DNA of 64,000 bases from assembly GCA_030737835.1 (NCBI GenBank), contig CM060850.1:4470015-4534014 (forward strand), written 5' to 3'. The stretch comes from Acorus gramineus. Taxonomy: Eukaryota; Streptophyta; Magnoliopsida; Acorales; Acoraceae. The position numbers and the translations under genes are program-made. Of this stretch, positions 3,484-57,111 are shown in pieces (the first letter of the stretch is position 1; every line of letters starts with the position of its first letter). The notes below the pieces were generated by a model. That model had not been told where the DNA came from, searched no databases, and saw only the letters and a list, made by a program, of their open reading frames with translations.

Positions 3484-3958
3484 GTAAATTTCCGTTTACT
3501 TTAGAAATCTATAATAAAAGTTTTTTATAAAGAGGTTCTCATAATAAAAATAGAAAATAGCTTAATGGGCTTTTAACTTTACGTGGGCTTTTATGTAATC
3601 CACAAACAATAATATGATTATTGGACCTCAACAATAATAAGCATCAAACTTTATGGGTTGATAAAACATACTACTCATTAATAAAAATATTATATAACCC
3701 AATTATATAAGTGCCCACTTGATCGGATCATACAAAAGAAATAATTACTTCAACATAACTTTCAAATTGAAATAATCACATACCTACGTAAATTTCTGTT
3801 TACTTTAGAAATCTATAATAAAAGTTTTTTATAAAGAGGTCCTCACAATAAAAATAGAAAATAGCTTAATGGGCTTTTAACTTTATGTGGGCTTTTATGT
3901 AATCCACAAACAATAATAGGATTATTGGACCTAAACAATAATAAGCATCAAACTTTAT
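3484..3958. repeat. 171-bp direct duplication specific to unit 1
   Basis: 3484-3654 and 3788-3958 are near-identical direct copies. The second copy sits exactly where unit 2 instead has about 1.46 kb of other sequence (14475-15933), so the duplication is tied to the breakpoint of that size difference. Confidence 0.85.
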
Positions 3959-4003
3959 TTGGAGGTTTTAAAATAGTTAGGAACATATCTTCCCATGATT
4001 TTA

Positions 4004-4054
4004 AAACTGTGTAGGACAGATTTACTAGTATGGTAGTTCTGTCCTACACAATTT
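4004..4054. other. perfect-stem hairpin downstream of ATPase copy A
   Basis: gtgtaggacag and ctgtcctacac form an 11-bp perfect stem that extends to 15 of 16 pairs, around a 19-nt loop. It lies about 1 kb downstream of the copy A stop codon. The copy in unit 2 (15978-16028) is identical in stem and loop. Function unknown. Confidence 0.6.
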
Positions 4055-5040
4055 CTATGACTTTGTTTATCTACTTGGATAATTTTTCAGAGGGTCCTTG
4101 TGTAGATTTTTTTTTCTCTCCCTCTCCAATTTCTACACATATATTCTGATGGTCTTATATTTGCTTGAATAATCAATAGAATGAGTTCAAGAGAATCGTG
4201 TCACCTCACAAGTATCAGACTAGATGTGTTGCTGTTGCTGCATTTCCTGATCATCAAGGATTTTTGTGACATTCTCTTTCTTGGCACTCTACTTTTGCTG
4301 AACCATTATGCCTTCTCCTTTGTCCTTTTTTTTTTGACAAAAGAACATGCCAAATTGTCAAGTTATGAAGAATCACTCATATCATTCTTTCAATTGCTAT
4401 TTTTCAAAAATATGCAGCTATATATAGCAAACTTCTCATGAGGATTACCTTCTCATTTCTAAATACGTTGAACAAGTATTATCAACGGTCAATGCCTAGT
4501 AGGGTCAATGCCTAATAGGGACAAATACATCTAATGTTTATTGCTTTAATTTCAAGTTTCAACACACGATGGGGAACTTGTGTTCATATATCTCTATCTA
4601 CATCAAGACGTCTTTCACTCTGCATTCAAGGATTATGTAGGTCTTCTCTGCTGTCAATGAGATGTTTTATGGAGGTCTCATGATTATGTAGTAAGTAATG
4701 AGTAAACATCACTCGGATAATGAATACCAAATCACTCAAGACAATTACAATTAAACCCATCTTGCATCATGATTAATCAAAATCTGACTAGCATAGAAGC
4801 AATTCTAACTACACCTTGAATTGAATTGAACTATTTCCCTCAAAAAAAAAATATAAAAATAAAATAAAATTACACTTTGAATTGCATATATGAGATGATA
4901 TAAAATCCCTGATGTAACAATAAGAGCACATGACAAGCAGATATATGTTCATGGAATAGAACTGGAACACCTAAATAAAGAATACACCTAAACAAAGAAT
5001 TAAAAAATCCAATGTGACAGAGGAGATATGAATGTCTAAT

Positions 5041-8000
5041 CTAATGATGTTTCAATAACCCAAACAATGGTCCATCCGCAACAGGCACGCACTTGGCAAT
5101 CCATCCAATCGGCCATGACACCATCCCGATCCCGATGCAAGCCGCCCATTGCACCCAATTCAACCTCTCTGTGTTGGCAAACCTCCTCAAGAACTCCACC
5201 ATCACCACTTGAAGGACAATCGTGATTCCGATGATAGCAATGAATAAACGGTTCTTGTGGATTCCCTCGAACACGTTCTTCTTCTCCAACTTCCTCGAAT
5301 TGAACTCGTTGAACACCTGACACAACACGAATGCGTTGAATATCAATGTCTTCTTCACCCTATCGTCCACTCCAAATATGGAACTCCCCTTGAACTGAAG
5401 CGCCAGTAGGACCGCAATTTGATATAGCGCTTGCGGGACGAGGTTCCTATACATGATGTTGGTCACTAGTGGCTCAGTGCGACCCACTGGTGGGTTCTTC
5501 ATTAGATCCCTGGTAGGCTTTTCAGTAGCCAATGCTAAAGCTCCCAAGGTGTCCATGATCAAATTCACCCACAACATCTGGACCGGTGTTAGCGGAACTT
5601 CACCGGATGAGATCGCCGCAATGACATTTATGGTCAATGCAGAGACATTCACTGTCAGCTGAAACTGGATGAATTTTTGGATGTTGGTGTAGACGCACCT
5701 TCCCCACTGCAAGACCGTGACGACGGAAGTGAAATTATCATCCAAAATCACAATGTCGGAGCTCTCCTTCGCAACTTCAGTTCCTTGGATTCCCATGGAG
5801 AGGCCAATGTCAGCTTCCTTTAAGGCGGGCGCATCATTCGTGCCATCCCCCGTGACAGCCACGACATCACCTTTTTGTTTCAAGCATTGCACCATCAATA
5901 ATTTATCTAAAGGAGAGGACCTCGCCATCACCCTGATTTCGTCAACAACTTCCATCCGCTCCTCCAATGTGTAGTTCCTAAAATCCTTGCCTTCAATCAC
6001 AGCTACACCCGAGCTGTGTTTCTGATCAAGAATGCCACATTCGAACGCAATGGCTCTTGCAGTGAACACATTGTCTCCGGTGACCATTTTAACATCAACC
6101 CCGGCTTCTTTGCAATCTTGGACTGCTTTTCGCACCCCTGGCCGACATGGGTCTTTAAGGCCAACGATCCCCAACAACGTTAAATCTTCATCTCTGATCT
6201 TCCGCACTCTGCCCCCCTCATCGAACTCAGTGTCCTCGTCCGAGACCCTCCTTTGAGCGAAAGCAATGCATCTAAGACTATCTTGCGCCATGCCTTCGAT
6301 GATCTCTTCAAACTTCGATCGACGATCTCTATCCATGGATTTCTTCATCCCCTCGCAATCAAAGCAATGTGAACAAGCGGCCAATACAATCTCAGCTGCT
6401 CCTTTCCAGTGCACATCCATCATGTTAGTTGTGTTATCCTTCACTAACACTCCGCTTCGCTTCTTCTCCGAATTGAAGGCCTCAACATGAACCAACGCGC
6501 AACTCGATTTTATCTCCTCCATGTCAATCCCCAAATCTTTCACAGCCCAAGAGAGTATCGCCTTCTCCGTCGGGCTGCCAGAGATTTCAGGTTCCGCCAA
6601 TGGGTCCGCCTTATAAACAGTGCCCGTCGTGTTAAGGACGACACCACTACGAAGCAATTCGACGACATTGTGAGGGACGCCCAAACTAGTATTCGGAGAT
6701 TCATCACCGATTATGAACTGGACGACCGTCATTTGATTCATCGTTAGAGTGCCCGTCTTGTCGGTGCAGATGGTTGTGGCGGAGCCCATGGTCTCGCAGG
6801 CGGAGAGCTTCCTGACCATGGCTTGGTCGGCCATCATGCGCTTCATGGAGTAGGCAAGGGTGAGGGTGACAGCCAAGGGAAGGCCCTCCGGGATGGCCAC
6901 CACAATGATGGTCACCGCGGCAGAGAAGATCTTCACCATTGAATTTATGATTTGGTTGGTTGAGGTCTTGCTTCCATGGAACTCTTGGTTACCATCATCA
7001 TCTTGTGTGTTCCCCGTGAAGTAGCGAATCATTAGAACCACAAGAACAACAGCTGCTACACTCAGTCCAACCTAATTAGTACATGAAAAACGATAAACTA
7101 TTAGGAGTTCCATATGAATAATATTGCATCTATATCAAGCAATGCGAACTGTTTTCATTGCAGTATAGACTAATTGATCTGATAGATGAAATGAAATACA
7201 AGTAGAAGATATTACTGACAAGAAATTTGAAACTTAAAATTTTCTTAAAAAAAACAAAAAAAAAAAAAACAGAATTTTAAAACCATTACAATGTGACAGG
7301 TGAAGCCAAGTGGATCTAAATGGAAAATAATATACTGGGCCACTTGTACAGCCTCATCCATAGTCTACACCGTTTCTTATTTTAAATCACACATTCACCC
7401 GTTGAAGAGCATAGTGTTATACGAGATGAAATATATATTAAGATACAATCATACAATAGTATATTTTTCTTTAAAAAAATAAAAAAATTTACTCAATGAT
7501 ATGATAAAACCTCATATATTATTATAGCATATTATATATTGTGATATCATAATGTATGGGACATCAGACGAAGCTATAAAATGGACTAAGTGTATCAACG
7601 CTCGGATCTAAACATAGTAACATGTGGTTATTAATAAGTAAAGCTAAGTTAGGGCCAATTTGTTTAAATTTCATGGAATGAGAAATTTAACCATGACCAA
7701 AGAAACGAAGGATTCCAAATACAACTGGCCCGGGTGTTCCAGCAAATTGAGAATGATAATGTTTTTGAAATATTTAAAAATGAACATAGGAATGGAGGAT
7801 TGTAAACACAATTTTTTGGAGTGTTTTAATAAAATGAGAATAAGAATGAATGTCAAACAGGATCTTAATCTCTAAACCATTTTTTTCACCGTGTGTTAAA
7901 ACATGCTTGAATAGTATATGATTCCCCTGTTTCCTATCTCAAATGATAGGATGCTCAAACATGCATGAATTAACTCAAGAAACCCAAACCCAGCATACCT

Positions 8001-9095
8001 TCTGAATCGCCGACGTCAAACCCTCGAGCCGCTCCTGCAGGGGGGTCTTCTCGCCAGCGCTGCCCAATCCTGCCAACGACCCCATCATCTCCCCCCACGT
8101 GGTGTTCGATCCGACGGCAGTGACCACCATCTTCCCATACCCATCCACCACCTTTGCCCCCGACATCAAAAACGGCATCCCTTCCCCGTCAATGTCCACG
8201 TGATCACTCTCCCCTGTCATTAAATATGTTAAATATGTCTATTGAGATAATAAGTCTTAAAATCTCGGTTCTAATTCTCACATCACTCTAATATATCACT
8301 TAATTACTTAAATTAGTGCTCATATTCACCTGACATGCTCGACTCATCCACCTTCAACGCGTAGCCTTCCAAGAACAACCCATCCGCCGGCACTTGGTCC
8401 CCGATCTTCAACCACACCACGTCCCCGACCACCAGGTCGAACACCGACACTTCCCTCCTCCGCCCCCCTCTCATAACGTCCACGGAAACGTCATTGTACT
8501 TCTCCGACAGCCTCTCGAATTGCTTCGACTGCCGGAAGTTGCTCACCGCCGTCACCGCCACGACGAGGAAGACGGCCACCAGAATGCTCCCGCCGTCGTA
8601 CCACCCCTCCCGGAGGCCGTGCTGCTTCACGCCGAAGGCCAACGACACAATCGCGCACGCCAACAGAAGGATCAGAATCTTGTCGTTGATGGCCTCCAAC
8701 GCGAAGCGGAGGAATCCCTTCGAGGGGGGCTTCTTGAGCGCGTTCCGCCCGAACGCGTCGGACCGAGCGCGTACGTCCGCGTCGGATCCGTTTATGCCCC
8801 GCTCAATGTGCGTGCGGAGCCCCGCGAGGACGCCGCGGACGCCTCCGCGTCGGGTGAGGTGATCCGGGTTCTTGTCCCTCACCAGGCTCGCGAGATCTGC
8901 GGCGGAGAAGTCGAAGTGTTGTTGGTCGATGCGGACGTCGAGGACGGCGTATGGGTGCGTCATCGTTGTCCATGGGAGGGTGGCTAGTTTGGACATGGCG
9001 CGGCACGTTCGGATGACGGCGACGGCGACCCGCCATCGCTTGCAGAGGAGGAACCTTGATAGAGAGCCACCTTTGTTTGTTGTGAAGGTTGACAT
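5041..9095 (-). CDS. autoinhibited Ca2+-ATPase (type IIB, ACA12/13-like), tandem copy A
   Basis: Coding exons (minus strand) 9095-8330, 8213-7999, 7071-5041, all GT-AG, giving 1003 residues (3012 bp with stop). A P2B pump exports Ca2+ from the cytosol with ATP, usually across the plasma membrane in the ACA12/13 branch. Residues 15-40 are a basic, tryptophan-containing calmodulin-binding autoinhibitory segment (KRWRVAVAVIRTCRAM). Further landmarks are the actuator motif at 255-258, PEGL in TM4 at 388-391, the phosphorylated Asp431 in DKTGT, KGAAE at 550-554 for ATP binding, TGDN at 658, TGDGTNDAP at 734-742, and TM6 Asn830/Asp834 for Ca2+. Length is normal for the family. Oddities: the actuator motif reads SGES rather than TGES, and Asn853 and Asn960 replace the Lys and Asp found in copy B. 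The start is the ATG before the calmodulin-binding region. The nearest named relatives, Arabidopsis ACA12/13, are to my knowledge intronless. The family assignment is firm, the exact subgroup less so. Confidence 0.95.
7072..7998 (-). other. intron 2 of ATPase copy A
   Basis: 927 bp, AT-rich, donor AAG|GTATGC and acceptor TTAG|GTTGG. About 0.12 kb (roughly 7597-7720) is absent from the matching intron of copy B (19048-19836, 789 bp). No coding content seen. Confidence 0.85.
8214..8329 (-). other. intron 1 of ATPase copy A, splitting the TGES codons
   Basis: 116 bp, GT-AG, phase 1 within the Gly codon of the actuator motif. Sequence at the donor (ATGTCAG|GTGA) and at the acceptor (ATGACAG|GGGA) is nearly the same, a mutated version of the exact 11-bp repeat in copy B. 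Confidence 0.9.
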
Positions 9096-9428
9096 GATTT
9101 GATTGAATTATAGAAAACTGTGTTGTTGTGGTTGAATCATATATTGTTGTTAATCTTATGTATATGTGCATGTTAATGGAGGACATGAAGGAACTCAAGG
9201 AAGTTTCCATGCAAATCATTTTTCATCTATCAGGAAACGCACGTCGGTATCCATTTTCATAAACACAACACGTTTTAAAAATATTTATTTAGACGCTTAT
9301 GGTATTGTTTGGAGAGATTTAAGGGAGATTATAAGGGGTGTTAGATTTCAGGGTATTTTAATTGCAAAACCTTCCCACAAAGTGACAGGGTCAACATTGA
9401 CTGGACATTTACCTGGATGCATCATTTA

Positions 9429-14474: not shown

Positions 14475-15933
14475 CATGATAACAACCCATATTCCACCAT
14501 AACTAACTAACTATCTCCGAAATTACGGAATTGCCATAACCAAGTCAATCTCATCCATACCGGCCATTAATTATTCCATTCATGCATGACCCTTATAATA
14601 ATTGATTTAATTTGATTAAATAAAAAACAAATCCTCTTAATATTCATACAGCAGATAAAATTAAAAAATCAAACCTATCATACTCCGGTTCGTTAAAACA
14701 AATATATCTGAGTACCATAAATTTCATATTAATCTCATTAACGAACAGTTTTATATGCATAAAAATTCCTCAAAATAAATTCTGAAAATTGAAAAATGAA
14801 ATGAGAATACTTTCAAAATATCATAATGATCATCAAGCATACATGATCTAAACATAAATCATATATATGATCTAATTTAATTTCACCGTTCATAAAATAG
14901 ATCATTAAAACATCATTAGATACATGATCTAAATTTAATTTTACGGTAAAAGACATCTAAGTCCCTACAAACATGAGAAAATCCATATAAGTCCCTACTA
15001 AAATTGGAACAGACGTACGAGTCCCTAAAAACTCAGAAAAAATTCAATTATCATCCCTGAGTTAAATTTCCATCCAAATTTAACAGAATATTCCTAGAAT
15101 ATTCCATCACATATAATTGTATAGACATTGAAGTCCTTATTAACAATCATAAAGACAAATTAGTCCCTGCAAAATACAAAATTGTCGCTGAAAGACTTTT
15201 ACATTAAATTGTGTACACATTGCTGTAGATACCGCAATTTTGACCGTTAAAAAATCAGAGATTTACTTCAAGTGATACTTAGAAATAACCACAATTGGAC
15301 ATCTAAAAGAAAACATCTTTAAAAGGAACAAACGAAACCCTGGCCACAACACTTTGAAAAATAAAAGACCGGAGAGGGGGAGGCTAGTTGAAAATAACTA
15401 TAGCTTTTTTTTCTATTTGAAAACGAGTTTGGGAAATTCAGCTTCCTACAAATTCAAAAGCACCCCAAACCCGTTTCAAACGGGGCCTCCGAGAAAGTGA
15501 GGTTTGTCCTAACATTCAAGATCTACAAGAATGGATTGCATGTGAAGGAGATTGTTAACCCAATCCAACTGTGTTGGTGTTAACGGTGAGCCATCGTTGT
15601 CATTGAAAAGAAAATTGGGGATTTAATAACGAACTCACCTGCTTTTAAAATGTCCTAGAAAAAATTTATTATACTCCTGACATTCCGTAATAGTGTGAAA
15701 TTTATCTGAAAGTAGGTTCTTATAGTTCCATGATAAATGATGAATTCCTTCAATCACTTGCTTCCTGTCATGCATCTACCATCTTATGAAGTGATTCCAA
15801 CATAATTTGAACTTTCAGATTGTTGAATATGCTCTTGTTTGCTGTGGAGGATCAATAATGAATAGGCCATGTCCCATAATCACTTTATCTACAAAACATG
15901 ATTCTGAATTTGGTAGTTTTGAGAGCTTAAATT
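14475..15933. other. block present in unit 2 only, downstream of copy B
   Basis: About 1.46 kb lying between words that are close together in unit 1. AT-rich, with several agtccct / gatctaaa words and a GC-richer part (about 15330-15620). I recognise no protein or transposon terminus. Because unit 1 has a 171-bp local duplication at the same spot, a deletion or replacement in unit 1 is more likely than an insertion here. Confidence 0.6.
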
Positions 15934-15977
15934 TGGAGGTTTTAAAATAGTTAGGAACATATCTTCCCATGATTTTA

Positions 15978-16028
15978 AAACTGTGTAGGACAGATTTACT
16001 AGTATGGTAGTTCTGTCCTACACAATTT
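15978..16028. other. perfect-stem hairpin downstream of ATPase copy B
   Basis: Same 15-of-16 pair stem and 19-nt loop as at 4004-4054. Confidence 0.6.
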
Positions 16029-17016
16029 CTATGACTTTGTTTATCTACTTGGATAATTTTTCAGAGGGTCCTTGTGTAGTTTTTTTTTCTCTCCCTCTCC
16101 AATTTCTACACATATATTCTGATGGTCTAATATTTGCTTGAATAATCAATAGAATGAGTTCAAGAGAATCGTGTCACCTCACAAGTATCAGACTAGATGT
16201 GTTGCTGTTGCTGCATTTCCTGATCATCAAGGATTTTTGTGACATTCTCTTTCTTGGCACTCTACTTTTGCTGAACCATTATGTCTTCTCCTTTGTCCTT
16301 TTTTTTTTTTGACAAAAGAACATGCCAAATTGTCAAGTTATGAAGAATCACTCATATCATTCTTTCAATTGCTATTTTTTAAAAATATGCAGCTATATAT
16401 AGCAAACTTCTCATGAGGATTACCTTCTCATTTCTAAATACGTTGAACAAGTATTATCAACGGTCAATGCCTAGTAGGGTCAATGCCTAATAGGGACAAA
16501 TACATCTAATGTTTATTGCTTTAATTTCAAGTTTCAACACACGATGGGGAACTTGTGTTCATATATCTCTATCTACATCAAGACGTCTTTCACTCTGCAT
16601 TCAAGGATTATGTAGGTCTTCTCTGCTGTCAATGAGATGTTTTATGGAGGTCTCATGATTATGTAGTAAGTAATGAGTAAACATCACTCGGATAATGAAT
16701 ACCAAATCACTCAAGACAATTACAATTAAACCCATCTTGCATCATGATTAATCAAAATCTGACTAGCATAGAAGCAATTCTAACTACACCTTGAATTGAA
16801 TTGAACTATTTCCCTCAAAAAAAAATATATAAAAATAAAATAAAATTACACCTTGAATTGCATATATGAGATGACATAAAATCCCTTATGTAACAATAAA
16901 AGCACATGACAAGCAGATATATGTTCATGGAATAGAACTGGAACACCTAAATAAAGAATACACCTAAACAAAGAATTAAAAAATCCAATGTGACAGAGGA
17001 GATATGAATGTCTAAT

Positions 17017-20000
17017 CTAATGATGTTTCAATAACCCAAACAATGGTCCATCCGCAACAGGCACGCACTTGGCAATCCATCCAATCGGCCATGACACCAT
17101 CCCGATCCCGATGCAAGCCGCCCATTGCACCCAATTCAACCTCTCTGTGTCGGCGAACCTCCTCAAGAACTCCACCATCACCACTTGAAGGACAATCGTG
17201 ATTCCGATGATAGCAATGAATAAACGGTTCTTGTGGATTCCCTCGAACACGTTCTTCTTCTCCAACTTCCTCGAATTGAACTCGTTGAACACCTGACACA
17301 GCACGAATGCGTTGAATATCAACGTCTTCTTCACCCTATCGTCCACTCCAAATATGGAACTCCCCTTGAACTGAAGCGCCAGTAGGACCGCAATTTGATA
17401 TAGCGCTTGCGGGACGAGGTTCCTATACATGATGTTGGTCACTAGTGGCTCAGTGCGACCCACTGGTGGCTTCTTCATTAGATCCCTTGTAGGCTTTTCA
17501 GTAGCCAATGCTAAAGCTCCCAAGGTGTCCATGATCAAATTCACCCACAACATCTGGACCGGTGTTAGCGGAACTTCACCGGATGAGATCGCCGCAATGA
17601 CATTTATGGTCAATGCAGAGACATTCACTGTCAGCTGAAACTGGATGAATTTTTGGATGTTGGTGTAGACGCACCTTCCCCACTGCAAGACCGTGACGAC
17701 GGAAGTGAAATTATCATCCAAAATCACAATGTCGGAGCTCTCCTTCGCAACTTCAGTTCCTTGGATTCCCATGGAGAGGCCAATGTCAGCTTCCTTTAAG
17801 GCGGGCGCATCATTCGTGCCATCCCCCGTGACAGCCACGACATCACCTTTTTGTTTCAAGCATTGCACCATCAATAATTTATCTAAAGGAGAGGACCTCG
17901 CCATCACCCTGATTTCGTCAACAACTTCCATCCGCTCCTCCAATGTGTAGTTCCTAAAATCCTTGCCTTCAATCACAGCTACACCCGAGCTGTGTTTCTG
18001 ATCAAGAATGCCACATTCGAACGCAATGGCTCTTGCAGTGAACACATTGTCTCCGGTGACCATTTTAACATCAACCCCGGCTTCTTTGCAATCTTGGACT
18101 GCTTTTCGCACCCCTGGCCGACATGGGTCTTTAAGGCCAACGATCCCCAACAACGTTAAATCTTCATCTCTGATCTTCCGCACTCTGCCCCCCTCATCGA
18201 ACTCAGTGTCCTCGTCCGAGACCCTCCTTTGAGCGAAAGCAATGCATCTAAGACTATCTTGCGCCATGCCTTCGATGATCTCTTCAAACTTCGATCGACG
18301 ATCTCTATCCATGGATTTCTTCATCCCCTCGCAATCAAAGCAATGTGAACAAGCTGCCAATACAATCTCAGCTGCTCCTTTCCAGTGCACATCCATCATG
18401 TTAGTTGTGTTATCCTTCACTAACACTCCGCTTCGCTTCTTCTCCGAATTGAAGGCCTCAACATGAACCAACGCGCAACTCGATTTTATCTCCTCCATGT
18501 CAATCCCCAAATCTTTCACAGCCCAAGAGAGTATCGCCTTCTCCGTCGGGCTGCCAGAGATTTCAGGTTCCGCCAATGGGTCCGCCTTATAAACAGTGCC
18601 CGTCGTGTTAAGGACGACACCACTACGAAGCAATTCGACGACATTGCGAGGGACGCCCAAACTAGTATTCGGAGATTCGTCACCGATTATGAACTGGACG
18701 ACCGTCATTTGATTCATCGTTAGAGTGCCCGTCTTGTCGGTGCAGATGGTTGTGGCGGAGCCCATGGTCTCGCAGGCGGAGAGCTTCCTGACCATGGCTT
18801 GGTCGGCCATCATGCGCTTCATGGAGTAGGCAAGGGTGAGGGTGACAGCCAAGGGAAGGCCCTCCGGGATGGCCACCACTATGATGGTCACCGCGGCAGA
18901 GAAGATCTTCACCATTGAATTTATGATTTGGTTGGTTGAGGTCTTGCTTCCATGGAACTCTTGGTTACCATCATCATCTTGTGTGTTCCCCGTGAAGTAG
19001 CGAATCATTAGAACCACAAGAACAACAGCTGCTACACTCAGTCCAACCTAATTAGTACATGAAAAACGATAAACTATTAGGAGTTCCATATGAATAATAT
19101 TGCATCTATATCAAGCAATGCGAACTGTTTTCATTGCAGTATAGACTAATTGATCTGATAGATGAAATGAAATACAAGTAGAAGATATTACTCACAAGAA
19201 ATTTGAAACTTAAAAATTTTCTTAAAAAAAAAAAAAACAGAATTTTAAAACCATTACAATGTGACAGGTGAAGCCAAGTGGATCTAAATGGAAAATAATA
19301 TACTGAGCCACTTGTACAGCCTCATACATAGTCAATACCGTTTTTTATTTTAAATCACACACTCACCCGTTGAAGAGCATAGTGTTATACGAGATGAAAT
19401 ATATATTAAGATACAATCATGCAATAGTTTTGAAAAAATAAAAAAATTTACTCAATGATATGATAAAACCTCATATATTATTATAGCATATTATATATTG
19501 TGATATCATAATGTATGGGACATCAGATGAAGCTACAAAACGGACTAAGTGTATCAATACAACTGGCCCGGGTGTTCCAGCAAATTGAGAATGATAATTG
19601 TTTGGAATATTTAAGAATAAACGTAGAAATGGAGAATTCTAGACACAATTTTTTTTTAGTGTTTTAACAAAATGAGAATAAGAATGAATGTCAAACACGA
19701 CCTTAATCTCTAATCCATTTTTTCCACCGTGTGTTTAAACATGCTTAAATAGTATATGATTCCCCTGTTTCCTATCTCAAATAATAGGATGCTCAAACAA
19801 GCATGAATTAACTCAAGAAACCCAAACCCGGCATACCTTCTGAATCGCCGACGTCAAACCCTCGAGCCGCTCCTGCAGGGGGGTCTTCTCGCCAGCGCTG
19901 CCCAATCCTGCCAACGACCCCATCATCTCCCCCCACGTGGTGTTCGATCCGACGGCGGTGACCACCATCTTCCCATACCCATCCACCACCTTTGCCCCCG

Positions 20001-20962
20001 ACATCAAAAACGGCATCCCTTCCCCATCAATGTCCACGTGATCACTCTCACCTGTCATTAAATATGTCAGTTACATGAAGAAGAAAAATCTAGCTTCCTA
20101 TACATTTATTGAAATAATAAATCTTAAAATCTTAATTCTATTTTTCACGTCACTATAATATATCACTTGATTGTCCAAATTAGTGTTCATATTCACCTGT
20201 CATGCTCGACTCATCCACCTTCAACGCGTAGCCTTCCAAGAACAACCCATCCGCCGGCACCTGGTCCCCGATCTTCAACCACACCACGTCCCCAACCACC
20301 AGGTCGAACACCGACACTTCCCTCCTCCGCCCCCCTCGCATGACGTCCACGGAAACGTCATTGTACTTCTCTGACAGCCTCTCGAACTGCTTCGACTGCC
20401 GGAAGTTGCTCACCGCCGTCACCGCCACGACGAGGAAGACGGCCACCAGAATGCTTCCGCCGTCGTACCACCCCTCCCGGAGGCCGTGCTGCTTCACGCC
20501 GAAGGCCAGCGACACGATCGCGCACGCCAACAGAAGGATCAGAATCTTGTCGTTGATGGCCTCCAACGCGAAGCGGAGGAATCCCTTCGAGGGGGGCTTC
20601 TTGAGCGCGTTCCGCCCGAACGCGTCGGACCGAGCGCGGACGTCCGCGTCGGATCCGTTAATGCCCCGCTCAATGTGCGTGCGGAGCCCCGCGAGGACGC
20701 CGCGGACGCCTCCGCGTCGGGTGAGGTGATCCGGGTTCTTGTCCCTCACCAGGCTAGCGAGATCTGCGGCGGAGAAGCCGAAGTGTTGTTGGTCGATGCG
20801 GACGTCGAGGACGGCGTATGGGTGCGTCATCGTTGTCCATGGGAGGGTGGCTAGTTTGGACATGGCGCGGCACGTTCGGATGACGGCGACGGCGACCCGC
20901 CATCGCTTGCAGAGGAGGAACCTTGATAGAGAGCCACCTTTGTTTGTTGTGAAGGTTGACAT
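17017..20962 (-). CDS. autoinhibited Ca2+-ATPase (type IIB, ACA12/13-like), tandem copy B
   Basis: Exons (minus strand) 20962-20197, 20051-19837, 19047-17017, GT-AG, 1003 residues. Same architecture as copy A: calmodulin-binding N terminus (15-40), actuator TGES at 255-258, PEGL at 388, DKTGT with Asp431, KGAAE at 550, TGDGTNDAP at 734-742, TM6 Asn830/Asp834. It differs from copy A at five residues that I counted by eye: Gly62 (Asp in A), Thr255 (Ser), Arg461 (His), Lys853 (Asn) and Asp960 (Asn). At 255, 853 and 960 copy B has the residue I expect for plant ACAs, so it looks like the more conserved copy. Expected role: calmodulin-activated, ATP-driven removal of cytosolic Ca2+, shaping calcium signals. 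Copy B keeps a much longer original upstream region and a TA-rich TATA-like tract. Confidence 0.96.
19048..19836 (-). other. intron 2 of ATPase copy B
   Basis: 789 bp, GT-AG, AT-rich. Shorter than in copy A because a segment before acaactggcccgggtg is missing. Confidence 0.85.
20052..20196 (-). other. intron 1 of ATPase copy B, flanked by an exact 11-bp direct repeat
   Basis: 145 bp, GT-AG. The donor context ATGACAG|GTGA and the acceptor context ATGACAG|GTGA are identical over 11 bp, so the Met-Thr-Gly-Glu codons are present at both intron ends. This is what an insertion with target duplication, or a short tandem duplication of an AGGT site, would leave. Confidence 0.9.
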
Positions 20963-21021
20963 GATTTGATTGAATTATAGAAAACTGTGTTGTTGTGGTT
21001 GAATCACATATTGTTGTTAAT

Positions 21022-21040
21022 CTATATATATATGTATATG
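21022..21040 (-). promoter_or_regulatory. TATA-like tract upstream of ATPase copy B
   Basis: An uninterrupted tatatatatatg tract on either strand, about 60-75 bp before the start codon at 20962. In copy A the same place has a shortened tatgtatatg. The position fits a core promoter with a short leader, but no start site can be shown. Confidence 0.35.
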
Positions 21041-21220
21041 TGCATGTTAATGGAGGACATGAAGGAACTCAAGGAAGTTTCCATGCAAATCATTTTTCAT
21101 CTATCAGGAAATGCACGTCGGTATCCATTTTCATAAACACAACACGTTTTAAAAATATTTATTTAGACGCTTATAATATTGTTTGGAGAGATTTAAGGGA
21201 GATTATAAGGGGTGTTAGAT

Positions 21221-23433: not shown

Positions 23434-24284
23434 ACGTACAAAGGGTTGGGAACCTCTGTTTTACAATAACAGAGGTTCTTTGTTTCCACCATTCAAGAGT
23501 CGACACGTGGCCTTGGCAATCACATGAGATGGAGCTGACGCACGTGTTCACTTAACAGACCTAATCTCTGTTTTCGTCCGTTTGCTTCCGTTAGGTCATC
23601 CAAGACACATCTCTCACATTCACTTCTCCTCTTACCTCCTCCAAATACCCTAGACATAAATCATAAAATTTATAAAGCATGAACCCCAACCAAGATAATA
23701 CAACTAATCCCCAAAAAAATGTCTAGATTGCAAATCATAATAAACTTTGACACCCTCTTAGGCATTACAACAAACATGTGCCATGCACTCTCATGAGCAA
23801 ATCTTCAACAAACAAAGACAAAATGTGTAATATCAAAGAATCAAACTACTCAACCTTTACAAGCGATACAAAGCAACAACAAATAAAAAATCCTCTTCTT
23901 TCGAGCTCCAACTTTCAAACCTATCCTTACCGTCCGATCGAAGGGGGCTAGGGTATTTCGAGTGTTCTTCAACCCGGGGCTGTCGGCGGTGTCCAACTCT
24001 GCGTCGTCGTCTTCGAACGGGGTCAATGTGAGAGATGGATTTGAAGAGATGGAGGAGGGGTTGGCTAGGGTATTTGGAGGAGGTAAGAGAAGAAGTGAAT
24101 GTGAGAGATGGGTCTTGGACGACCTAACGGAAGCAAACGGACGAAAACAGAGATTGGGTCTGTTAAGTGAACACGTGCGTCTGCTCCATCTCACGTGATT
24201 GCCAAGGCCACGCGTCGGCTCTTGAATGGTGGAAACAGAGAACCTCTGTTATCGTAAAACAGAGGTTCCCAACCCACGTACGAA
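23434..24284. mobile_element. Mutator-like MITE 2 with 211-bp inverted repeats
   Basis: Element 23443-24275 (833 bp). The terminal inverted repeats 23443-23653 and 24065-24275 are highly similar over 211 bp, starting gggttgggaacctctg. Target duplication acgtacaaa (23434-23442) / acgtacgaa (24276-24284), 8 of 9 matching. The empty site survives at 25192-25200 in the third copy. Each terminal repeat contains its own small palindrome around aacctctgtt...aacagaggtt. The 411-bp interior includes a GC-rich stretch (about 23935-24040) with an open frame on both strands that I do not recognise. It could be a captured gene fragment. Confidence 0.85.
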
Positions 24285-24439: not shown

Positions 24440-25340
24440 CCCATATTAACTAATTTTTTAGATAAATAAATATTTTTTTTATTGAATTAGATATTATAAT
24501 ATGTTTTTCATTTCAAACATTTTAGGGGTATTTTAATTGTAAAATCGACAGGTCAACATTGACCGGGCATTTTCTTGGAAGCATCATTCTTCAAAAAAAA
24601 AAATACTATATTTTTTTAATTCTATTTCACCATAGTAAACCCAAAAAATTGTTTCTACGGGAAATGAAAAAAATATTTTATAAAAAATTTCATGTAGATC
24701 TCTATCAAATAGATCTAAACAATCTAATATGATAGATTAAATCTAATAAGTTAGAACAGATTAAATATGTCCCCACATATATATGATGAGATCAATATAA
24801 ATTGGAATTAGAATTTTAATTTTAATTTAATTTTTAAAATCTAATTTTAAATTTAAATATAAAATTGGAAGCTTTAATTTTAAAATTAACATAAAATTTA
24901 ATACTAGAACTTCATAAAATTTAATACTAGAACTTAAGAACATGGAGAATAAAAAAAATTAAGATTAAAGTTTATTCTATTATTCTTATACACGTCCTCC
25001 ACTTATGATAACTGTCAATTATTGCAATTAAAATTGATCTTGTACTAATTTTGTCATAAGAAAATAATCGAGGATGAGTTTGCTATGTTGGCCTAATGTT
25101 TTTCTACATAATAATTCGAATTGGAAATTAAACTAATGCTTATGTACCAAGTTCTTTCCATTTTTTTTTTTTTATTAAGATAGAACTTCATACGTACGAA
25201 AGTATGCTTGGTTGCTGGGGGGTGTCAACGGAGTCTGACACATTGTCATGGGTAATTGCATAATAAATACATAGAAATATAATACGTAATCGCATAATAA
25301 ATACAAAACAGACTAGGGAAAATAATATTAATGAGAATAA
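24440..25340. repeat. diverged third copy of the ATPase upstream region
   Basis: Homologous in order to 21669-22395, then 23370-23442, then 24276-24440, i.e. the upstream region without either MITE. It is visibly more diverged than units 1 and 2 are from each other, so this local duplication is older than the gene duplication. Confidence 0.8.
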
Positions 25341-55278: not shown

Positions 55279-56168
55279 TACATATTAGTGCGCGTCTATC
55301 CTCACCAATTGATTCTCTTAACATATCACTGAAAAAAAAATAAAAAAATGTTTGGTTGTTTCCACCAATTCAAGTTGATTGAACTTGGTCATCATTTTAT
55401 ATTTTGGGTGATCGAACTTAGTTGTCATTTCAGTTTTTGGGTGACCGAACTTTATCGTCATTTCAGGTTTTTGACGATCAAATTTGCTTAAACATGGTTC
55501 ATATATTACATGTTTTTGACATTATCTACCTTTTTTTTTTTATAAACAAATAAATTTTTGGATTTATCTATCATATCTTATGTTTATTCTTTTATCCAAA
55601 CAGTAGTTAAGGGATTGAAAAAAATGTAAGTATGCATACTTTCAATTAATTCAAATTTTTATAGAAAAATATCTTATTAGACAAATATATATCATTTTTA
55701 AGTTTCATTTAATTTCATGGTTAAGTGGATTCTTTGTTTGAAAAAAAAAATCCACGAGTTGATTTAAATACATTTTATATCTGGCTTTTGAAAATGTGAC
55801 TCACTTATGTAAAAAAACTGTTTTCATGTTTTACATTTAAGAATAATGATTGATTTTCTATACATTACAACTCAAACTTGGAGTGACATGAAAGATCCAA
55901 GGAGGATAGACGTCATAGGATTATGTTTTCAAGAAAAAAAATTATAAATTTTATTACAAACCCTGTTCATCTAAATTCGGTCGTCTAAAACCTAAAATAA
56001 TAACCAAGTTATGTTGATTAAAATATGAAATGACGATCAAGTTTGATCGCTCTAAACTTAAAGTGGCAATGAAATTTGATTGACTTGATCAGATATGTGG
56101 GAACAGAAAAAACATCAATTATTATTTTTATTTTTTTTCTTAAGTGAAACCCTCGCGCGTACATATTA
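55279..56168. mobile_element. Mutator-like MITE A of the spacer pair
   Basis: Element 55288-56159 (872 bp), flanked by perfect 9-bp tacatatta copies (55279-55287 and 56160-56168). The ends gtgcgcgtctatcc and gtgaaaccctcgcgcg are diverged inverted repeats. Both ends carry about 33-bp periodic words related to the phrase ttggtcgtcatttcaggttt and its complement. No transposase. Confidence 0.8.
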
Positions 56169-56198
56169 TCCCACCGTCAGAGGTCATAGAACCAAGGT

Positions 56199-57111
56199 TT
56201 TCTAATCGGGCGCGTCTATCCCTACCTAGTCTTTTTTTACCCCTCCAATAAAAAAAATGTGTTTTTTCTATTCTCACCGATCTAGCCAGGTCGATTAAAC
56301 TTGGTCATTATTTTAAGTTTTCGGCGATCGAACTTGGTCGCCATTTTAGGTTTCGGGCCACCGAACTTGGTCGAGCAGAATTTGTAATAAAGTTTTTAAT
56401 TTTTTTTCTTGAAAACTTAATCCTATGACGTGTATCCTCCTCGGATTATTCATGCAACTCCAAGTCTAAGTTGTAATGTAGGGAGAATCAATTATTATTC
56501 TTAAATGTAGAACATAAGAACAATTTTTTTTACATAAGTGACGGATAAATTTTTAAAAGCTAAATATAAAATGTGTTTGGATCAACTGGTAGGTTTTTTT
56601 TTTTAAAACAAAGAATTCGCTTAAATACGAATTCAAACGAAGCTTAAAAATGATATATATTTGTCTAATAAAATATTTTTCTATAAAAATTTGAATTAAT
56701 TGAAAGTATACCTATTTATTTTTTTCAGTCCCTTAGCTGTTATTTGGATAAAAAAATAAATGTAGAATATGATGGATAAATCCAAAAATTTATTTGTTTA
56801 CAAAAAACATGTAAATATAATTTTAGACCTTGTTCGACTAATTTCGGTTGTCCAAAACTTGAAATGACGACCAATTTCGATTGCCCAAAACCTGAAATGA
56901 CGACCAATTTCGATTGCCCAAAACCTGAAATGGCGACCAATTTCGATCGCCCAAAACTTGAAATGACGACTAAGTTTGGTCGTCCAAAACCTGAAATAGC
57001 GACCAAGTTCGGTCGACCTGAATTGGTGGGAACAGCCAAACACCGTTGTTTTTTTTTTTTATGATGAGTTAAGTGAAACGTTTGGTGAGGATGACCGCGC
57101 CCTTTCCAATC
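56199..57111. mobile_element. Mutator-like MITE B of the spacer pair, opposite orientation
   Basis: Element 56208-57102 (895 bp), with ends gggcgcgtctatcc and gatgaccgcgccc. Target duplication tttctaatc (56199-56207) / tttccaatc (57103-57111), 8 of 9. Same family as MITE A, lying inverted and only about 30 bp from A's right target duplication. The sequence aaaaatgatatatatttgtc in B is the reverse complement of 55681-55700 in A. Confidence 0.8.
56834..57015. repeat. 33-bp minisatellite inside MITE B
   Basis: About five and a half units of 33 bp, each containing ccaaaacctgaaatg- and accaatttcg-like words. Because 33 is a multiple of three, frames stay open on both strands and give artificial repeat peptides. 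Confidence 0.9.

Follow-up and report, generated by a model that had tools for sequence, protein, structure and literature searches.

A tandem pair of Ca2+-ATPase genes

The window, by which we mean the whole 64,000-nucleotide stretch of Acorus gramineus contig CM060850.1 that was analysed, contains two intact minus-strand genes in tandem, copies A and B. Each encodes a P2B Ca2+-ATPase of 1003 amino acids, whose nearest solved relative is Arabidopsis ACA8. The two coding sequences differ at 27 of 3012 nucleotides and the two proteins at 5 residues (dN 0.0022, dS 0.032), and the dN/dS of about 0.07 indicates coding constraint. A Pfam scan reported the ATPase domains and did not report an N-terminal autoinhibitory domain, in a scan that had no positive control for the autoinhibitory model.

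Each gene comprises three exons. The two introns interrupt both copies at the same places, residue 256 in phase 1 and residue 328 in phase 0, and they were found again by spliced protein-genome alignment that was given no prior structure. The exons and introns are as follows.

20197..20962, minus strand: copy B exon 1, 766 nt, ending ...AGC ATG ACA G
20052..20196, minus strand: copy B intron 1, 145 bp, GT-AG, phase 1, residue 256
19837..20051, minus strand: copy B exon 2
19048..19836, minus strand: copy B intron 2, 789 bp, phase 0, residue 328
17017..19047, minus strand: copy B exon 3
8330..9095, minus strand: copy A exon 1
8214..8329, minus strand: copy A intron 1, 116 bp
7999..8213, minus strand: copy A exon 2
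7072..7998, minus strand: copy A intron 2, 927 bp
5041..7071, minus strand: copy A exon 3

Intron 1 lies inside TGES, a catalytic motif whose codons it splits. If it is retained, the reading frame closes after Met-Thr-Gly-Glu-Tyr-Glu-His. Because both frames are intact and constrained and would close this early with the intron kept, the spliced product is probably the selected one, and intron 1 should be spliced. The RNA fold of intron 1 shows nothing notable (z 0.28), and Rfam detects nothing at gathering score in the window.

A tblastn search of the window found no coding remnant of the pump other than copies A and B. A third, older copy (81%) of the ATPase upstream region is located at 24443-25136. 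The window also contains an inverted repeat of 214 nt (23443-23656 and 24062-24275, 95% complementary, spacing 405 nt), and 33-bp tandem units at 55968-57051 within a long-inverted-repeat region at about 55.3-57.1 kb. In viral contigs, 0 of 5 pattern matches were confirmed as relatives. Bacterial genomes yielded 16 loci, and the five inspected (L001, L010, L014, L015, L016) are uninformative on intron position.

An 11-bp direct repeat at the borders of intron 1

The exon-intron boundary of intron 1 in copy B, ATGACAG/GTGA, recurs exactly at the intron-exon boundary, so that Met-Thr-Gly-Glu can be read at either end of the 145-bp intron, just as the preliminary description of this DNA had it. 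That description also gave copy A the same two sites with one change each. This is correct, although the length of 145 bp applies only to copy B, and intron 1 of copy A measures 116 bp. The four repeat units are as follows.

20193..20203, minus strand: copy B 5' repeat ATGACAGGTGA, 7 nt of exon 1 plus intron GTGA
20048..20058, minus strand: copy B 3' repeat ATGACAGGTGA, intron ATGACAG plus exon 2 GTGA
8326..8336, minus strand: copy A 5' repeat ATGTCAGGTGA, differing at one position, which turns the Thr of TGES into Ser
8210..8220, minus strand: copy A 3' repeat ATGACAGGGGA, differing at one position, with no effect on the protein

The only exact occurrences of ATGACAGGTGA in the window are the two at the copy B borders. 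Allowing one mismatch raises the count to 8, both units of copy A among them, where shuffled sequence would give 1.15. On the intron side, neither gene has a change in its half of the repeat. The threonine of TGES is also found in ACA8 and PMCA1, so the serine of copy A (ATGTCAG) is likely derived, in which case the ancestral repeat spanned no less than ATGACAGG; a serine at this place does, however, occur in one 7-exon-type paralogue too.

A chance match had been named as the alternative to a duplicated insertion site, and the repeat exceeds what chance would supply. In a simulation whose null uses plant splice-site frequencies, an exact in-register run of at least 11 occurs in 3-6 per 100,000 introns. 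Five further ACA genes of this genome have 87 predicted introns between them, and the border runs of these span 0-7. The range narrows to 0-5 for the 38 introns whose flanks are supported; the remaining 49 may include mispredictions.

Published data counsel caution about border repeats in general. One survey reports them in every one of 213 introns, 43 of which are spliceosomal (Table 1), with a mean length of 11.4 bp and mostly with mismatches; its Table 2 contains no spliceosomal repeat of at least 7 bp at 100% (PMC11782384). A review notes that gained introns of Drosophila carry border repeats no more often than conserved introns do (PMC3443670). Because repeats are common in surveyed introns and are not enriched at the Drosophila gains, the 11-bp repeat taken alone is only suggestive.

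Most of intron 1 comes from a dispersed element

When compared with the window only, intron 1 has no significant match except its counterpart in copy A. A search of the whole genome (398.6 Mb in 137 contigs) reversed this impression of unique sequence. It gave 603 candidates, 40 of which were scored; 2 of the 40 are the window copies, and 38 lie elsewhere, on C1-C10 and C76, at 84-88% identity. Thus the suspicion that intron 1 might exist as a dispersed element was well founded. The 38 outside matches cover query bases near 16-100, which is the 5' part of the intron.

Twenty of the 38 were fetched with their flanks. As the best matches to the intron, they do not sample the family at random. 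Every one of them has the segment inside a longer element, for which we derived a 488-bp consensus that starts with TAAGCCTGTCAAT, a terminal inverted repeat (TIR), and ends with ATTGACAGGCTTA. Both terminal repeats are visible in 18 of the 20 copies, the right end being missing in L025 and L033. The 8-bp flanks agree at no fewer than 7 of 8 positions in 11 of the 20 copies, as target duplications do. Short TIRs and an 8-bp target duplication are the anatomy of a hAT-like miniature element (MITE), and we class the source element as a putative one. Its assignment to the hAT superfamily is presumptive, since we take it from the duplication length. The element Dissociation of maize is a hAT element.

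In both genes, nucleotides 2-86 of intron 1 correspond to consensus positions 146-230 of the MITE.

20111..20195, minus strand: MITE-homologous part of copy B intron 1, 86% identical to the consensus
8244..8328, minus strand: MITE-homologous part of copy A intron 1, 78% identical to the consensus

Alignment scores to the element are 122 for copy B and 94 for copy A, whereas about 3000 random 85-mers from the window reach 52 at most. The similarity begins at intron nucleotide 2 and therefore stops at the exon border. The upstream exon is not element-like beyond background, because 637 of 2981 coding 30-mers are as good as that of copy B, and 804 of 2981 as that of copy A. At the other end, similarity ceases at nucleotide 86. 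The remaining tails align to the element no better than shuffled sequences do (600 of 1000 shuffles as good for the 28 nt tested in copy A, 786 of 1000 for the 57 nt tested in copy B). Before the 3' repeat there are consequently 23 nt in copy A and 52 nt in copy B that lie beyond the MITE-matching part and have no traced source.

The sampled MITE copies differ from the consensus at 0-4 of 84 sites by local alignment, whereas the intron segment differs at 12 of 85 sites in copy B and 19 of 85 in copy A. This greater divergence implies an older or different subfamily as the source of the insert, and the search brought up no direct donor copy.

Two other origins of the intron body can be weighed against these results. 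One was offered in the preliminary description beside insertion, namely tandem duplication of an AGGT-bearing exon segment (the Rogers model), which agrees with the location of both splice sites within a repeated AGGT. However, the intron does not significantly match any exon of the gene, its body is 25% G+C compared with 63% for exon 1, and it matches a dispersed element. We therefore rejected this origin, to which almost no credence can be attached: the exonic source it requires is missing and the MITE match contradicts it.

Alternately, the MITE family could have captured its core from the ATPase intron. The sampled copies are nearer the consensus than the intron is, as such a direction would predict, but they are best matches and not a random sample. 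Capture would have had to start precisely at the splice site and take along no exon, to which the element has no significant similarity, and it leaves the origin of the intron itself unexplained. Moreover, an older family member resides in another gene (71% identical, consensus 257-488), although that member lacks positions 146-230. We regard transfer in this direction as very improbable.

The remaining question about the MITE concerns how it arrived. Clean transposition, with target duplication and subsequent deletion of both ends, would be in keeping with a dispersed family whose members have TIRs and duplicate their targets, and Dissociation is a known source of a new intron according to a title cited in PMC3443670. 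Against this, the duplications of the family are 8 bp and that of the intron is 11 bp, so the expectation of a repeat family with similar target duplications was disappointed; and the intron holds an internal fragment from which both ends are gone. Any resemblance of the intron's 3' border to a TIR is not significant (equalled by 407 of 2000 shuffles in copy B and 306 of 2000 in copy A), and no terminal inverted repeats within the insert stand above shuffles (3903 of 5000 as good). Clean transposition is thus an unlikely route.

Intron 1 is absent from five ACA paralogues

A protein search of the genome (46 scored of 95 candidates) identified five ACA paralogues: three of a 7-exon type and two many-exon ACA8-like genes. 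A more distant paralogue may exist beside them. The motif is uninterrupted in all five. One paralogue reads AGCTTGTCAGGTGAGAGTGAG, an empty site nearly identical to the spliced sequence of copies A and B. Each of the three 7-exon-type genes has a single open stretch over at least residues 65-710. None of 87 predicted paralogue introns falls at residue 256. The same intron position in most ACA paralogues would have pointed to an ancient intron, and it is occupied in 0 of 5 in this genome.

Copies A and B belong neither with the 7-exon-type nor with the many-exon (ACA8-like) paralogues, and by this exclusion they are assigned to the putative ACA12/13 type (cluster 3) of plasma-membrane Ca2+-ATPases. 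The statement in the preliminary description that Arabidopsis ACA12/13 have no introns is confirmed in print (PMC5920303), and soybean ACA12/13 are listed with one exon each (PMC9161174). In wheat there is one intronless ACA group, which is not called ACA12/13 in the portion of the text used (PMC5966885). We found no published account of intron 1 in the literature searched, which omits most subscription journals.

Two side observations concern the 7-exon-type paralogues. One of them (L077, C2) has Ser-Gly-Glu-Ser, as does copy A. Another (L058, C3) is the gene with the older copy of the same MITE, at 748-988, between coding exons.

An older intron could already have been present at the codon, and a MITE could have landed in it later, displacing most of it. 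The 3' tail of intron 1 has no explained source, as might be expected of a remnant, and two of the paralogues, the many-exon ACA8-like genes, have an intron only 5 codons downstream (residue 261, phase 0), the nearest in any paralogue. Intron 2 of the same gene provides a precedent, in that the middle of it (copy B nt 280-550) is a second dispersed repeat, mostly at 69-76%, between unique flanks (genome search with 40 scored of 736 candidates). However, the MITE match starts at intron nucleotide 2, leaving no old donor-side intron. Derivation from the residue 261 intron would require a slide of about 14 nt and a change of phase, and the 11-bp in-register repeat would have to be a coincidence. 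With the position empty in all five identified paralogues and in ACA12/13 of both Arabidopsis and soybean (PMC5920303, PMC9161174), we consider an older intron quite unlikely.

The preferred reading, gain of intron 1 by insertion, was proposed in the preliminary description, and the origin of the intron body from a dispersed repeat and its absence from the five paralogues both uphold it.

Age of the insertion and divergence of copies A and B

Since intron 1 is present in both copies, the insertion predates the tandem duplication. Relative to the MITE consensus over 85 sites, 8 changes are common to copies A and B, 11 are private to A and 4 are private to B. The gain had been described as possibly recent. 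The gain itself stands, but it is not strictly recent, as the two genes share both the intron and the 8 of 85 changes, which would place it before their duplication. The shared changes could represent time that elapsed before the duplication, or they could be marks of an older subfamily.

Intron 1 is more diverged between the copies than its surroundings are. It differs at 20 of 116 positions and intron 2 at 37 of 788 (Fisher p 6e-6). Compared with 4-fold sites of exons 1-2, the excess has p 4e-4, and compared with 4-fold sites of the nearest exon stretch it has p 0.02. An old transposon fragment together with patchy gene conversion would account for this divergence. When 3957-9346 is compared with 15931-21220, synonymous divergence falls from 6.5% in exons 1-2 to 1.6% in exon 3, and divergence of the 3' flank is 0.6%, a gradient that suggests later gene conversion of the 3' half.

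All 11 of the changes private to copy A in its MITE segment (8244-8328) are transitions, and some are clustered. Among the differences between the two copies in intron 2, 25 of 37 are transitions.

Proposed origin of intron 1

Intron 1 is probably a new spliceosomal intron that arose when an internal MITE fragment inserted at ATGACAGGTGA with duplication of 11 bp of target. A fragment of at least 85 nt (consensus 146-230) would have entered this exon sequence, and the target would have been duplicated in the process. The duplicated AGGT would then have supplied both splice sites, with CAG|GTGA as the donor and ATGACAG as the acceptor, and the AT-rich MITE fragment would have become most of the intron body. 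Splicing would restore Met-Thr-Gly-Glu and leave the protein unchanged. Tandem duplication would have followed, producing copies A and B.

The insertion may have occurred by repair of a staggered break, with the element fragment as filler DNA, and not by the action of transposase. Such repair fits better with an insert that lacks both ends of the element and with a family whose own duplications are 8 bp. Immediately upstream of the captured part, the element reads TGACATGTTTGA, which resembles the target TGACAGGTGA, and this microhomology may have guided the junction. For the same reason, part of the 11-bp repeat could be pre-existing microhomology.

A broader proposal is that break repair in this plant has repeatedly trapped MITE fragments at AGGT sites in exons and so created introns, a land-plant counterpart of introners that uses pieces of elements, with intron 2 as a second product. 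The position of intron 2 is not matched in the five paralogues, where the nearest predicted introns are at residues 314 and 343. We offer this generalization tentatively, and think it unlikely to hold.

Significance and comparison with known systems

Gained introns mostly have no traceable source. Here most of the source, the repeated target and intron-free paralogues are available in one genome. The insert splits the catalytic TGES codons, and splicing failure truncates the pump, so the intron would have survived at a site that is intolerant of error. The exact repeat also leads us to infer that recombination between its units could cause precise intron loss, and that template switching during reverse transcription could mimic splicing in cDNA. 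The type of event is known, and intron 1 adds a natural example of it from a land plant, in a catalytic motif and with most of its source traced.

As P2B pumps (1003 amino acids here) with no N-terminal autoinhibitory domain detected, copies A and B resemble ACA12 and ACA13, for which the absence of that domain is published in the soybean paper (PMC9161174). They differ from them in having three exons instead of one.

Insertion of a transposon into AGGT is an established model of intron gain, and PMC3443670 gives cases from Oryza, Zea, Drosophila and Oikopleura. As in that model, mobile DNA would have become an intron, a duplicated AGGT would serve as both splice sites and the protein would be unchanged. 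In contrast, the insert described here is an internal fragment without ends, and its 11-bp repeat departs from the 8-bp duplications of the family.

Introns gained in Daphnia have border repeats of 4-12 bp, which PMC4202315 ascribes to staggered double-strand breaks. Intron 1 shares with them the direct repeats at its borders and the feature that the inserted DNA need not be an entire element. Unlike the Daphnia introns, its insert comes mostly from a MITE family, and it occurs in a land plant and in two tandem copies. The Daphnia gains are described in the same source as recent, polymorphic alleles, which intron 1 is not.

Introners, finally, include some families that co-opt splice sites from target duplication, and within animals and land plants a large survey (PMC9860276) reports introners in only two groups, both of them animals. 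Intron 1 is like an introner in being derived from a repeat. No family of such introns was seen among the 20 copies fetched from the 603 candidates: in all of them the segment lies within a longer element, 18 of them with both ends, and is not an intron-only unit.
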